Positions 15,373 to 20,699 of a stretch of 64,000 nt of DNA are shown here, one piece after another (positions within the stretch are counted from its first letter, which is position 1; every line of letters starts with the position of its first letter). The notes beneath the pieces were generated by a model, which did not search any database, was not told the origin of the DNA, and worked only from the letters and a program-made list of their open reading frames with translations. Origin of the DNA: Oscillospiraceae bacterium (lineage in GTDB: Bacteria > Bacillota > Clostridia > Oscillospirales > Oscillospiraceae); contig WQVH01000002.1 in assembly GCA_009781695.1 (NCBI GenBank), forward strand, positions 1-64,000. The letters are read 5' to 3'. A program made the translations under genes and the position numbers.

Positions 15373-15927
15373 CTACTTCCGCAATTTCAGCGAAATATCC
15401 CGCACATCTGCCATGCCTTGAAACAGGCGCGCCGCCACTTTCGCCTTTTCTTTCACCGGGTCATCGGGCTTCGTTTGGCGTGCCAGCTCTATCATAACAG
15501 ATTGAGTATCTTGTAGCTCTAGCAAATTCACCGCTACGCAGAAAAGATTCTTCCTCCGACCGTCATTGTAATGCTCAAGAAGTTCCCCCAGTATCCGGAC
15601 TTTCTCATTCAGTTCTGCTGCATAGGCTTCTGCGCCGATCTGTGTTGCTTTTTCCATATCCAGAAACTGATTTTTATGCGTCACAAAAGAATCGGATGCA
15701 TCTACGCCGTCATATTTCTCACATGGAAATACATCACAGTCAAAGCAATATTCCAAGCCTTTTCGCTGACAGCAAGACAGCATGCCGCAACCGCAATGTG
15801 CCGAGGTAAATCCTTCGCCGCCGCAACCGGGACATCTGGATGCGCCATCTGTATAGTATCGAGGGCATAAGCCGCAATTTAGTCCACAGGCCGAAAATAG
15901 CGGATAGCTTCTTACTTTATATTCCAT
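15373..15927 (-). CDS. DUF3795-like cysteine-rich protein
   Basis: CGLNCGLCPRYYTDGASRCPGCGG. Confidence 0.7.
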   Translation of the reverse strand: MEYKVRSYPLFSACGLNCGLCPRYYTDGASRCPGCGGEGFTSAHCGCGMLSCCQRKGLEYCFDCDVFPCEKYDGVDASDSFVTHKNQFLDMEKATQIGAEAYAAELNEKVRILGELLEHYNDGRRKNLFCVAVNLLELQDTQSVMIELARQTKPDDPVKEKAKVAARLFQGMADVRDISLKLRK

Positions 15928-15942
15928 TTTATTTTCTCCTTA
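15821..15942. repeat. Direct repeat copy 1 (5' end of the DUF3795 gene)
   Basis: 122 bp matching 19616-19737 with 3 mismatches. Confidence 0.9.
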
Positions 15943-16001
15943 GCATGGTGGGAGTCGAGTCTCGGTGGTTTTATAGGGTGTATTTTGTTGTATGCGCCAT
16001 T

Positions 16002-16208
16002 TTAAGTCATTTGTCTGGCTTCCACAAAGAGGTCAATATCCTCAATGATGTAATCTACGCCGGTCGTGTGTAGGGCTTCGTAGCAGGACATAATATAGTC
16101 GGTCACACCGTAGCGCATAAACAGCTCTATGACCTGCTTGCCTGTCATATTTTTTGCTGCCTTATATGTTTCAAGGCAATAAACCAAGAATTTTCCTTCC
16201 GCACTCAT
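16002..16208 (-). CDS. DUF3791-like protein
   Basis: EGKFLVYCLETYKAAKNMTGKQVIELFMRYGVTDYIMSCYEALHTTGVDYIIEDIDLFV. Confidence 0.7.
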   Translation of the reverse strand: MSAEGKFLVYCLETYKAAKNMTGKQVIELFMRYGVTDYIMSCYEALHTTGVDYIIEDIDLFVEARQMT

Positions 16209-16210
16209 GG

Positions 16211-16450
16211 CTACGCCTCCTCCGGATATGTGATTTTTCCTGTGTCGCGTTCTTCCTGATACATTTCAAACAGCGCGTGAGCACTCAAATGCCACAGCTT
16301 TGTTTCTTCTTCCTCAAGCCCTTTGTACAGCTCCGAGGCGTATAACATCTCTGCTGCGCTTTCATCATCAACTTTGTACGCAGTCATGATCAGTTCCAGG
16401 ATTTGCGGCACGAGGAAAATGAGCGCAGTCGATAGTTTGTTCCTATTCAT
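16211..16450 (-). CDS. Small DUF3791-like protein
   Basis: 79 aa between the DUF3791 and DUF3990 genes, same strand and tight spacing. Confidence 0.55.
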   Translation of the reverse strand: MNRNKLSTALIFLVPQILELIMTAYKVDDESAAEMLYASELYKGLEEEETKLWHLSAHALFEMYQEERDTGKITYPEEA

Positions 16451-16454
16451 AACG

Positions 16455-16943
16455 CTACTCCTTTATGTCTAAAGTTCCGACAAACTGCAAATACGAAAGT
16501 GCGCGATTACTCAAAAACACCAGTTGATTATACAGTTTCTTTACTTTAAGACGATTTATGGTGTCTTCTTTTGTCAACTCTCCGCTTGCATAAAGATGGA
16601 ACGTTAAAAAGATATCATCGTCTGCCACTGGCCCAAATATCAATTCAAACGCCTCACCTTGATATGTGCGGTTTCGATGAGCGGAAACAAAATCCAGCCA
16701 CGCTTCATCCGGCAAATCAAAGCGCAGAGCGCTGCAAACAGAGAATGCTGCGTTCTCATCAAACTCATACACGCTAACAATCGGCTCCCTATCTTTTCTG
16801 CGCCGATAAACTTTTTCGGCAAAAGAGACTGCCTGCACCTTGTTTTCTGTGGTGTAAAATCCGCTGCCGAAATCCAATGCTCGATTCTGCGGGATGAGTA
16901 CCGGCTTTTCAACAACCACATTGCTTCCGTGATAAAGGATCAT
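16455..16943 (-). CDS. DUF3990-like protein (putative ADP-ribosyltransferase-like fold)
   Basis: [16 protein letters not shown]...[23 protein letters not shown]...[12 protein letters not shown]. Confidence 0.75.
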
Positions 16944-17075: not shown

Positions 17076-18536
17076 TCAGTTATCCGTCATAGAAATAGAT
17101 AGTGCAACAAGACAGCTTAGAACCATTGTATCGTATTTGACTAGTACAGCATTATCTATATATTCTTTGCTTCCATGTATCACTTCATTTAGTTCATCAA
17201 TCATTTTTCCATAATCATCCATTGAGCGGTTTTTGAAGAGGTTTCGAATATCAGAATTTTTAGTGCCTTTTATGCTCTCCAAAACTGTCATTGCATTTGT
17301 CAGCTTAGTCGGATTGATAAATGAAACTGATTGATTTGTAGTGCCTAGCAGGTTATCTTTTATCGTTTGAGAATCCGTCAAACTATTGGTGTTAAATTTA
17401 GTTCCATTGCTACGATACCAATTGCACCAATGCCGCAATGCCATCTCTAGTAAAACTCTATATAAATACGGCGCAATTCGTCTCTGCTCAGAATCTGTAT
17501 TTATTTGTAATCCAATTGCAAATCTAAGCGTTGGCCCGAAGATAGCATCGCCAATACTTATTCCACTTTTTTGCCACTGGAACAATATAGACGTTGAAGG
17601 GCGGTAGGTATTTCTTCCTAACCCACCAGCTCTTTCACTCTTTCCAGATACTTCTTTTAGCGCTACATTGGCAACCTCACCCTCAGCATTTGCAAGAGGA
17701 GTTGAGTCTTTCTTCTCGGTGACAATTGTGACATCATCTTGCATATATATGTGTTCTGGCTGATTTTCTGTCGCATTTACAGGAAACAACTTTAGTTGAA
17801 AACTGTTTATAGCCTCATCAGTTTTCAGCCGAGGTAAATAGCGCGAATAAGACACTCCGACAGGCTTTGCCGCACATATCCTCTCATAGGCTTCTTCGAT
17901 AAACTCTTTATTATTAAAATCCCAGTCACCTTCCACAGAGAATATCTTTTTTACTATTTCATTGGAAAAAATTGTATTCAAATCGGTATAAGGAATTTTA
18001 CTGAAATGTGATTTCTTGTTCAAACCACAAATTTTACTGACATGGTATGCATAGTGATAAAATGGCTTTTTTCCGTTCTGAACATAGGCGTAATCACGCT
18101 GAAAAGCATCCCACGGAATTTGCCCTTTGCCTCCCGATTCACCAGAATGTTCATTTTCTATAAGACGCAAGGCTTCTTTGCTATCAGTGTCATAGACCAG
18201 AAGTTCAGTTTCAGGGGTGAGCTCAATTTCATTTTTTATCTGTTTAAAGCGTACGTCTCCATCCAGCACACATTTCATTACTGCAATCCTGCGATTTCCA
18301 TCGTAGACATTGTAGATTCCGTTTCCGTTCGAAACAACAACAGGTTGACGGTGAGAGTTAAGGCCATATTCAAAGATGTCCCTTGCAAGTTCTTTCATCT
18401 TGGCTAATCCGACTTCATCAATCAAAATTTGAATGGCAATGGACTCCTCTATCGCATCCTCACTTGCCACTCTAGGGTTATCTGTCCAAACTACCAAATG
18501 CTTAATTGCAACGTGCTTTAGCTGACCCAACTTCAC
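17076..18536 (-). CDS. ParB/sulfiredoxin-like domain protein with a long C-terminal region
   Basis: ADNPR-type N-terminus (VVWTDNPRVASEDAIEES) and YNVYDGNRRIAVMKCVL; 486 aa. Confidence 0.7.
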   Translation of the reverse strand: MKLGQLKHVAIKHLVVWTDNPRVASEDAIEESIAIQILIDEVGLAKMKELARDIFEYGLNSHRQPVVVSNGNGIYNVYDGNRRIAVMKCVLDGDVRFKQIKNEIELTPETELLVYDTDSKEALRLIENEHSGESGGKGQIPWDAFQRDYAYVQNGKKPFYHYAYHVSKICGLNKKSHFSKIPYTDLNTIFSNEIVKKIFSVEGDWDFNNKEFIEEAYERICAAKPVGVSYSRYLPRLKTDEAINSFQLKLFPVNATENQPEHIYMQDDVTIVTEKKDSTPLANAEGEVANVALKEVSGKSERAGGLGRNTYRPSTSILFQWQKSGISIGDAIFGPTLRFAIGLQINTDSEQRRIAPYLYRVLLEMALRHWCNWYRSNGTKFNTNSLTDSQTIKDNLLGTTNQSVSFINPTKLTNAMTVLESIKGTKNSDIRNLFKNRSMDDYGKMIDELNEVIHGSKEYIDNAVLVKYDTMVLSCLVALSISMTDN

Positions 18537-18541
18537 CCCTC

Positions 18542-19363
18542 CTAAACAACCACTTTATTATAGAACATAAACTCACTGGCTTTCTTTTTACTCTGCAAGC
18601 TATACTTGAGTAGTAGTGTCTCCGCAATTCTATTGGAGTAAATGTTTCTTATCTCATCGCAAATGTCGTAAGTGATAATCCATGGTGTGTTTTCTAACGC
18701 TGATTCAATTATTTGTGCAAGTTCTTCATGGTCGCTGTATTCGAAATAGTTTGCATACAGTTTCTTTCCCTTATTAAAGTAAGGAGGATCAATAAAGAAA
18801 AACGAACCTTTGCATTCAAAGGTATCTATAAGATTTTTTGCATCTATGTTGCTGATGTTTATATAATCTTTTTGTTCTGCTATTTTTTTTATTAACTCAG
18901 TCAATCTGAGTTTGTTAAATCTACAATCAACAGTATAATTCCCATTTTGAGAAAAGCCTCCAATTGGTCCGGCGTTCAAAATTCCAGAACGATTTGTCCT
19001 ATTTAAGAAAAAGGTTGCAAACCCTAACTCCAAAGCGGTATGCATATCTGTATTCGTATATATATCCTTTTGTCGATACCATTCGTTGATTGTTATAGGT
19101 GTTCTTTCAATCAAGTGTATAAAATCGGCAGTATCGTGGACAATGCTATGCCAGAAAGAGTATATAGCAATGTCATAATCATTTATGGTTATCTCATTTA
19201 CAACACCATCTAGTAGTAGTCGTACCGCTATGCCGGCTCCACCTGCAAATGGCTCAACATAATGACATCCTCTCAAATGGTTAGTTTCTATTATGTGACG
19301 AACAGTAGCATACATTTGATTTTTTCCACCCGGATAACGCAAAGGAGAGCATGATATTCCCAT
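18542..19363 (-). CDS. Dam-type (D12 class) DNA adenine methylase
   Basis: SPLRYPGGKNQM, YVEPFAGGAGIAVRLL, FFFIDPPYF. Confidence 0.9.
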   Translation of the reverse strand: MGISCSPLRYPGGKNQMYATVRHIIETNHLRGCHYVEPFAGGAGIAVRLLLDGVVNEITINDYDIAIYSFWHSIVHDTADFIHLIERTPITINEWYRQKDIYTNTDMHTALELGFATFFLNRTNRSGILNAGPIGGFSQNGNYTVDCRFNKLRLTELIKKIAEQKDYINISNIDAKNLIDTFECKGSFFFIDPPYFNKGKKLYANYFEYSDHEELAQIIESALENTPWIITYDICDEIRNIYSNRIAETLLLKYSLQSKKKASEFMFYNKVVV

Positions 19364-19615
19364 AACGAATCGTCACCTCCTCGATTATAAGCCTTATATA
19401 TATTAAGAAGAACAGCTCATTTTACCACAGCTTTTGCCAAATTTCTACCACTCTCGTCTCTTATCTACATTCTCTTATTCAACGCAATATTCTACTACAG
19501 CAGACGGCAAGTCCGACTTATAAATGAGATGTGCCATTTTGACCATTCTCATTATTTTTGACATGCGGAAATCGTGAAAAAATGGGTCACTACGCCCACG
19601 CAACTTTCCCCTTGA

Positions 19616-19737
19616 CCGCAACCAGGACATCTGGATGCGCCATCTGTATAGTATCGAGGGCATAAGCCGCAATTTAGTCCACAGTCCGAAAATAGCGGAT
19701 AGCTTCTCACTTTATATTCCATTTTATTTTCTCCTTA
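19616..19737. repeat. Direct repeat copy 2 (orphan 5' fragment of the DUF3795 gene)
   Basis: 122 bp, 3 mismatches to 15821-15942. Confidence 0.9.
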
Positions 19738-19755
19738 TAATCGGATATATCAACG

Positions 19756-20016
19756 CTATACATTGTGCTGTTCCCGAATGCATTTTAAAGACTGCTTTGC
19801 GTTTCTAATGCGGCCTTCAGAAACATCAAGCTCAGATGCTCCGAGCTTATGATACACATCTTGCATGAACATGCGCTCTTCAAAAGCTTGAATGCTCATT
19901 ATCACCATGTCGCCGTAGCCATTCTTTGTTATGTATATAGGTTCGTTAATATCATGGCAAAGCTGTGAAATCTCTCCGGTATTTTTCAAGTCTTTGATCG
20001 GAATAATTTGCAGCAT
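19756..20016 (-). CDS. Phd/YefM-type antitoxin
   Basis: MLQIIPIKDLKNTGEISQLCHDINEPIYITKNGYGDMVIMSIQAFEERM. Confidence 0.8.
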   Translation of the reverse strand: MLQIIPIKDLKNTGEISQLCHDINEPIYITKNGYGDMVIMSIQAFEERMFMQDVYHKLGASELDVSEGRIRNAKQSLKCIREQHNV

Positions 20017-20032
20017 TTCAAAAGCCCCCTTT

Positions 20033-20075
20033 TCTGGCTTCCACAAAGAGGTCAATATCCTCAATGATGTAATCT
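20033..20075. repeat. 43-bp direct repeat of 16014-16056 (DUF3791 3' fragment)
   Basis: TCTGGCTTCCACAAAGAGGTCAATATCCTCAATGATGTAATCT is identical in both places. Confidence 0.9.
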
Positions 20076-20201
20076 GCAAATACGAGAGTGCGCACTCAAT
20101 ATACCCCACAAGCGATCCAAAGTAAAGCGATTTGTGCGCAAAAGTAGTTTTTGACTATATGTGAATTATGCGGTAACATCATGGTATACATAGGACACCA
20201 T

Positions 20202-20690
20202 GCCCCCTTCGCGCTCGAAGGGGGTGCCGTCCACAGACGGCGGGGGTTGTCCTTCAGGACGGAAAAGAGGTGCAGTCAAATCGTGCCAAACACACCATAT
20301 AATGCCGCATTGACCAAGAGAGCAAGGGATCTCAGGAAGAATGCAACAAAGCAAGAAAATCGCCAATGGTACGAATACTTACGTGATTTCCGTCCTCGTT
20401 TTACGCGACAGCGTATTGTAGGCAGTTACATTCTTGATTTCTACTGTGGCTCGGTGAAACTCGCTGTCGAATTGGATGGCTCTCAGCATTATGAATCTGA
20501 ATCAATGGAATATGACAAAACCAGAACCAGATTTCTTGAATCTTTAGGCATACAAGTCATACGTTTTGCGAATACTGATGTTGATAAAAATTTTGAGGGG
20601 GTCTGTATTGCTATTGAAAACCAAGTAAATGCGCTTCGGGGACAACCCCCGCCGTCTGCGGACGGCACCCCCTTCGAGCGCGAAGGGGGC
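20202..20690. mobile_element. Candidate small mobile element: DUF559 endonuclease ORF between 51-bp inverted repeats
   Basis: 20202-20252 and the reverse complement of 20640-20690 agree at 50 of 51 positions. Confidence 0.65.
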
Positions 20691-20699
20691 TCAGAGTGA
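20283..20699 (+). CDS. DUF559-type (Vsr-like) endonuclease domain protein
   Basis: KRARDLRKNATKQENRQWYEYLRDFRPRFTRQRIVGSYILDFYCGSVKLAVELDGSQHYE; GTG start favoured over the upstream ATG. Confidence 0.75.
   Translation: MPNTPYNAALTKRARDLRKNATKQENRQWYEYLRDFRPRFTRQRIVGSYILDFYCGSVKLAVELDGSQHYESESMEYDKTRTRFLESLGIQVIRFANTDVDKNFEGVCIAIENQVNALRGQPPPSADGTPFEREGGSE

Follow-up and report, generated by a model that had tools for sequence, protein, structure and literature searches.

Sequence assignment of an Oscillospiraceae gene pair, encoding a DNA adenine methylase and a ParB-like protein, to the anti-phage system PD-λ-5

In this work we analyze two adjacent genes in a stretch of 64,000 nucleotides from an Oscillospiraceae bacterium (contig WQVH01000002.1; hereafter the window) and identify them, through sequence comparison, as a divergent PD-λ-5 system. 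PD-λ-5 is an anti-phage system of two genes that was first discovered in Escherichia coli. A preliminary description of the window had recognized a cassette formed by a ParB-like gene (A) and a D12 methylase gene (B), and had proposed that it constitutes an acquired module with a role in DNA-modification-linked defense or element maintenance. Both open reading frames are intact at the positions then reported, and the proposed role in defense is supported by the PADLOC match to PD-λ-5, for which phage protection has been shown in E. coli; the results speak neither for nor against element maintenance. Judged from sequence, the membership of the pair in the PD-λ-5 family and its role in defense are near certain, and an unannotated pair thereby gains an assignment to a phage-defense system; as regards the window, it is an ordinary acquired defense module of a kind already known. 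We further consider it probable that the pair arrived by horizontal transfer as a PD-λ-5 module in which B marks self, while A senses the missing mark and carries a HEPN-like effector. The features on which the analysis bears are the following:

19364-19395, minus strand: operon leader upstream of B, with a strong Shine-Dalgarno sequence, GAGGAGGT, and a TATAAT-like box read from the sequence as a candidate promoter
18542-19363, minus strand: B (PD-λ-5 B), predicted D12/Dam-type DNA adenine N6-methyltransferase of 273 aa (Pfam and PADLOC)
18531-18541, minus strand: 11-nt junction from the stop of B to the TTG start of A, with the Shine-Dalgarno sequence AGGAGG over the B stop
17076-18536, minus strand: A (PD-λ-5 A), with ParB/Srx-like N-terminus and putative HEPN-like C-terminus, 486 aa from a GTG
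17787-18536, minus strand: residues 1-250 of A, predicted ParB/Srx-like nucleotide/DNA-binding module followed by a helical region (NPR 20-22, GNRR 80-83, H130, W142)
17613-17774, minus strand: linker of A (about residues 255-308), modeled with low confidence (pLDDT < 50) and changing fast
17076-17561, minus strand: residues 326-486 of A, all-helical putative HEPN-like (DUF4145-type) domain (R360...E364, N450-x3-H454)
15821-15942: left copy of a 122-bp direct repeat, the 5′ part of a DUF3795 gene (98% to 19616-19737)
19616-19737: right copy of the direct repeat, a truncated DUF3795 5′ end (98% to 15821-15942)

The two genes are adjacent and lie on one strand, like the ParB-like A and D12 methyltransferase B of PD-λ-5, and each matches its PADLOC counterpart. 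B aligns with PD-Lambda-5_B over residues 1-271 (PDLC04018, E=4.6e-111), and A is matched by 24 PD-Lambda-5_A profiles, the best of which (PDLC04004, E=1.2e-26) covers residues 5-278 only. The window pair departs from PD-λ-5 in this divergence of A, with profile matches confined to its N-terminal part, and in belonging to a Firmicutes-type lineage, whereas PD-λ-5 is a proteobacterial prophage system; A is alignable over its full length with verified A neighbors. The original E. coli system was not retrieved in a blastn search of E. coli genomes with a Kosakonia plasmid pair, the likeness to the founder being judged through the PADLOC profiles. In B the motifs SPLRYPGGK, EPFAGGAG and DPPY are all intact and Pfam MethyltransfD12 is matched at 3.3e-19, which by sequence makes it a D12-class adenine methyltransferase. 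Mrr attacks some methylated DNA, and an mrr-deleted cloning host therefore fits an active adenine methylase in PD-λ-5. The host in which PD-λ-5 was cloned had the mrr-containing region deleted, suggesting that the methylase of the system modifies DNA (PMC9519451). PD-λ-5 belongs to a set of 21 systems obtained through phage selection from E. coli strains (Vassallo et al. 2022, PMC9519451), where it changed plating or plaque size for all but one of ten phages (PMC9519451); no mechanistic study of it was found among the open-access papers searched.

Neighborhood conservation, which the preliminary description had put forward as a check and whose absence would have counted against its reading, shows the pair to be co-conserved from both directions. 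Among 162 loci selected through B from GTDB species genomes and viral contigs, 97 have an A-type neighbor, which in four cases (L048, L143, L151, L152) is shorter, being ParB-like but lacking the HEPN-like part. A precedes B on the same strand in 80 of these 97 loci (75 of the 80 with -82 to 87 nt between the genes) and the two genes lie on opposite strands in six; the remaining 11 have B before A, the order by which the window also differs from PD-λ-5. Conversely, B adjoins A in 13 of 17 genomes with a full-length A, drawn from phylum, class, order and genus samples, and the pairing is kept across phyla. The other four genomes (G609, G496, G459, G148) have a full-length A without B, so A does not depend on methylation as its partner. 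A occurs sporadically, being present in 2 of 19 genomes within the genus and, with partial matches included, in 5 of 396 within the order. So scattered a distribution is that of a mobile accessory module. Searches with A as a single protein returned no relative among viral contigs, none among plasmids and one weak match among phages, in a Paracoccus phage where it adjoins a homologue of B. Another genome of the genus (G400, L221) contains an independent PD-λ-5 pair in the A-to-B order, next to which, judged by eye, lie an apparent NotI-like restriction enzyme and the terminal part of a cytosine methyltransferase.

The nearest relative of the pair, in a genome of the same order and another family (G1109, L238/L240), is 71% identical in B and 54% in A over their full length, and keeps the rarer B-to-A order and the 11-nt gap. 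The blastn match between the window and L240 spans 19365 to 17414, setting in two bases before the start of B, and translated similarity continues to 17082, at the stop of A, with no convincing match outside the pair; the coincidence of these limits with the edges of the pair indicates that the module consists of these two genes. That they are mere chance neighbors, in favor of which no evidence was found, has practically no claim to belief in view of the co-conservation from both directions and the identical junction in L240. Synonymous sites are saturated in this comparison (pN 0.17 and pS 0.80 for B; pN 0.29 and pS 0.80 for A), and a pN far below pS shows that purifying selection has kept both genes functional, with the exception of the A linker, where pN reaches 0.58 versus 0.23 in the N-terminal part of A. 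A tree of A places the window within a Firmicutes clade of B-to-A order (99/82), and a tree of B, built with a quick method and predating G1109, places it beside Tenericutes and Bacilli sequences of A-to-B order; both placements are uncertain because of long branches.

Comparison with L240 also bears on the start of A, which had been described as lying 6 bp downstream of B. The adjacency stands; the spacing is probably 11 nt, as the likelier start is a TTG codon at 18528-18530, yielding a protein of 484 aa. This codon sits 7 nt after an AGGAGG, and in L240 an ATG occupies exactly the same place, 11 nt after B. The overlap of the Shine-Dalgarno sequence with the B stop codon suggests translational coupling of the two genes. 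A promoter consensus scan of the region yielded little above shuffled sequences.

No significant Pfam family is detected in A, in which GmrSD_N appears only far below the cut-off. Residues 1-130 are modeled with confidence (pLDDT 86-97), and Foldseek returns Noc, ParB and KorB as top matches of the N-terminal model (best E=1.7e-3, prob 1.00); a PDB sequence search with A yields ParB/Noc alone, weakly. The predicted structure and the GNRR box together identify the N-terminal 130 residues as a ParB/Srx-type fold, in agreement with the ParB/sulfiredoxin-like N-terminus noted in the preliminary description. A carries NPR and VYDGNRRIAVMK, and N20, R22, G80-R83 and K88 are near-invariant in a family in which it is some 15-25% identical to most homologues. 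Nucleotide-binding box and N-terminal fold are thus shared with Noc/ParB/KorB and SbnI of the ParB/Srx superfamily, from which A differs in lacking ParA and parS, in having another C-terminus and in the replacement of ENxxR, the third CTP-binding motif of partition ParBs, by H130-G-...-W142 (also written H130...G-G-x-G...W142), whose H130 and W142 are invariant in 80 of 80 A sequences.

The fold match and the alignment of the GxRR box with ParB lend some credit to reading A as a partition ParB of a plasmid or chromosome, with an orphan methylase unrelated to it next door, the case that the preliminary description had set against its own reading. We find it very improbable and rejected it: no ParA is present among the neighbors of A, the genome has its own parAB on contig C21, where a true parB (PF02195, E=4.2e-31) adjoins a Walker ATPase, ENxxR is replaced, and the pairing of A with B is conserved across phyla.

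Beyond a linker that is probably disordered (residues 255-308, by model confidence), the C-terminal region of A had been left unassigned in the preliminary description, with a HEPN fold among the suggested checks. Profile-profile alignment now provides a moderately supported assignment to a HEPN-like, DUF4145-type domain: 105 columns align with DUF4145 (P=1.8e-4, versus 0.32 for a reversed-profile control), with the R-x3-E and N-x3-H motifs of one matched to those of the other in unchanged order, and 5 of 75 homologues of the region match DUF4145 directly, if weakly. The helical domain combines a conserved polar residue with a histidine motif, and H454, usually in the context LNxxxH, is the sole residue of the C-terminal half conserved throughout the 75 homologues (75/75, at 9-20% identity to the window). 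The assignment is of moderate strength because the hhalign probability is 48%, because the arginine of the canonical HEPN R-x4-6-H is missing, the family having (L)N-x3-H instead (DELNEVIHG in the window), and because no solved fold is matched significantly: with the C-terminal model (pLDDT 73) Foldseek finds no PDB entry at E<=0.001, entries of HEPN toxins at E 6-10 being noise, and a PDB sequence search with the region returns nothing. A further difference from the HEPN-type domains of Abi proteins, DUF4145 included, is the fusion to ParB, those domains being fused to restriction subunits. The same HEPN-like domain ends a GHKL (HSP90-like) ATPase elsewhere (L201:310-2244), as expected of a portable effector domain.

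An alternative interpretation of this architecture is a compact type II-like restriction-modification system, in which the ParB-like domain of A would be a DNA nuclease acting on unmodified DNA and the C-terminus would dimerize or regulate. The ParB superfamily does have nuclease members, and GmrSD, which combines a ParB-like domain with an HNH nuclease, offers a precedent (PMC12839542); 2 of 80 A homologues match GmrSD_N weakly, and A resembles these type IV restriction enzymes in its ParB/Srx-like N-terminal domain, a DG(Q/N)xR-type motif and its expected role as a defense effector. We nevertheless judge this alternative unlikely, since A has no known nuclease motif, its own GmrSD_N match lies far below the cut-off, and the only fully conserved residue of its C-terminal half is a HEPN-type histidine. 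A also differs from GmrSD in lacking an HNH domain and in having a methyltransferase partner.

Under the self-marking interpretation that we favor, B would mark the host genome by methylating adenine in a specific DNA site, and the ParB/Srx-like N-terminus of A would bind nucleotide and DNA. A may then sense that DNA is unmarked or that a phage is attacking the marking; its HEPN-like C-terminus would be a toxic effector, blocking the phage or halting the infected cell through a catalytic activity and on a substrate that we infer. In this lineage, where A lies downstream and may be translationally coupled to B, the methylase could be made before its dangerous partner. The nature of the trigger and the effector chemistry of A are the least firm elements of the scheme, and may as easily prove wrong as right. 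Residues that can be named for mutation are GNRR, H130, W142 and H454 in A and DPPY in B.

A toxic A is also the premise of an addiction module, with B as antidote, A as toxin, death of the cell upon loss of the pair and phage defense as a secondary effect. This account, which overlaps with the restriction-modification alternative and strikes us as similarly doubtful, draws on the presence of pairs on mobile-looking segments and viral contigs, and on two genomes, G181 (L198/L203) and G069 (L196/L204), in which A is interrupted and B, followed by an AAA ATPase, is intact, which would follow from a harmful A and a harmless B. The same loci fit an A that is either harmful or dispensable. Against it, PD-λ-5 was isolated through phage selection (PMC9519451), and the four genomes with A and no B disfavor a strict antidote, unless another partner replaces B.

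Outside the window, partner swaps are seen around both genes of the pair. Most of the B loci that lack A (65 in total) have a different partner. An ATPase of the AAA-15/21 (OLD-like) type accompanies B at 52 loci, in nine of them together with A and sometimes as part of a three-gene set, and a HerA ATPase does so at 12, with a Schlafen/AlbA_2 gene in eight. The ATPase of the first type, of some 550 aa, is found with this methylase clade in L019, L034, L020, L069 and about 50 other loci; the combination looks uncatalogued, since its PADLOC matches are moderate and mixed (AriA, PtuA, GajA, NsnB). In a Clostridia clade (L011, L022, L024, L032, L037, L091) B lies between the Schlafen/AlbA_2 gene and the HerA-like ATPase. 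A gene with a CxxxCxxC signature, and with weak Radical_SAM Pfam matches or none, adjoins three of the four full-length A genes that have no B. Pairings of a ParB-HEPN protein with this radical-SAM-like enzyme, its CxxxCxxC invariant and no methyltransferase present, occur in three genomes and two viral contigs (L241:5295-8521, L242:7338-11090, L228, L243 and L244); L243 and L244, the two closest viral relatives of the enzyme, have the A-type gene directly upstream. In G148 (L199) the ParB-HEPN gene, likewise without methyltransferase, is followed by an OLD-like ATPase of the type described above; in L004 a Shedu-like (DUF4263) protein was noted upstream by eye.

These swaps provide a comparative handle on non-self sensing in modification-linked defense. 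Speculatively, and with rather little expectation of being right, PD-λ-5 could be one face of a modular family, in which ParB-HEPN proteins would be general reader-effectors of nucleic-acid marks made by different writers (an m6A methylase or a radical-SAM enzyme) and the same methylase clade would serve AAA-ATPase and HerA/Schlafen effectors; in that case DNA or RNA would carry a self-mark, as yet undescribed, made by radical-SAM enzymes.

GC content is lower in the pair (38.9% in A and 35.3% in B) than anywhere else in its surroundings; the window as a whole has 44.9%. The copies of the 122-bp repeat, the second of which corresponds to the duplicated DUF3795 fragment reported earlier at 19.6 kb, enclose the pair together with DUF3990 and DUF3791 genes, and a second repeat places 16011-16056 again at 20030-20075 (98%). 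No tRNA, tmRNA or Rfam RNA was detected in the window, no tRNA or tmRNA in L240 and no integrase among the immediate neighbors of the pair, and consequently no att site was identified. The sequence at 16.94-17.04 kb, previously called a gene fragment, reads as some 30 in-frame residues after a stop; no relative of this putative fragment was found among the loci of the genus. No restriction endonuclease had been recognized nearby in the earlier description, and none was recognized beside the pair in its operon here, where A matches no nuclease family; a DUF559 ORF is located on the other strand.

The DUF3990 gene, a 79-aa gene and the DUF3791 gene (16002-16943, minus strand) match the PADLOC candidate PDC-M13 at up to E=4.5e-66, and DUF3990 genes are common in the genus (16 of 19 genomes). 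Comparison of 15821-16504 with 19616-20093 reveals a rearranged duplication, in which the DUF3795 5′ end, the DUF3791 3′ end and the DUF3990 3′ end recur; the shrunken second copy surrounds an orphan Phd/YefM-like antitoxin gene (19756-20109). The DUF559 ORF (20151-20699, plus strand), of nuclease fold and outside the pair, is bracketed by inverted 51-bp palindromic repeats (98%), at 20202-20252 and 20640-20690, and its PPPSADGTPFEREGG tail is encoded by them. Dozens of further copies of this palindrome are scattered across genomes of the genus, and from their sequences the ORF and its palindromes may possibly form a nuclease-associated REP-like element.
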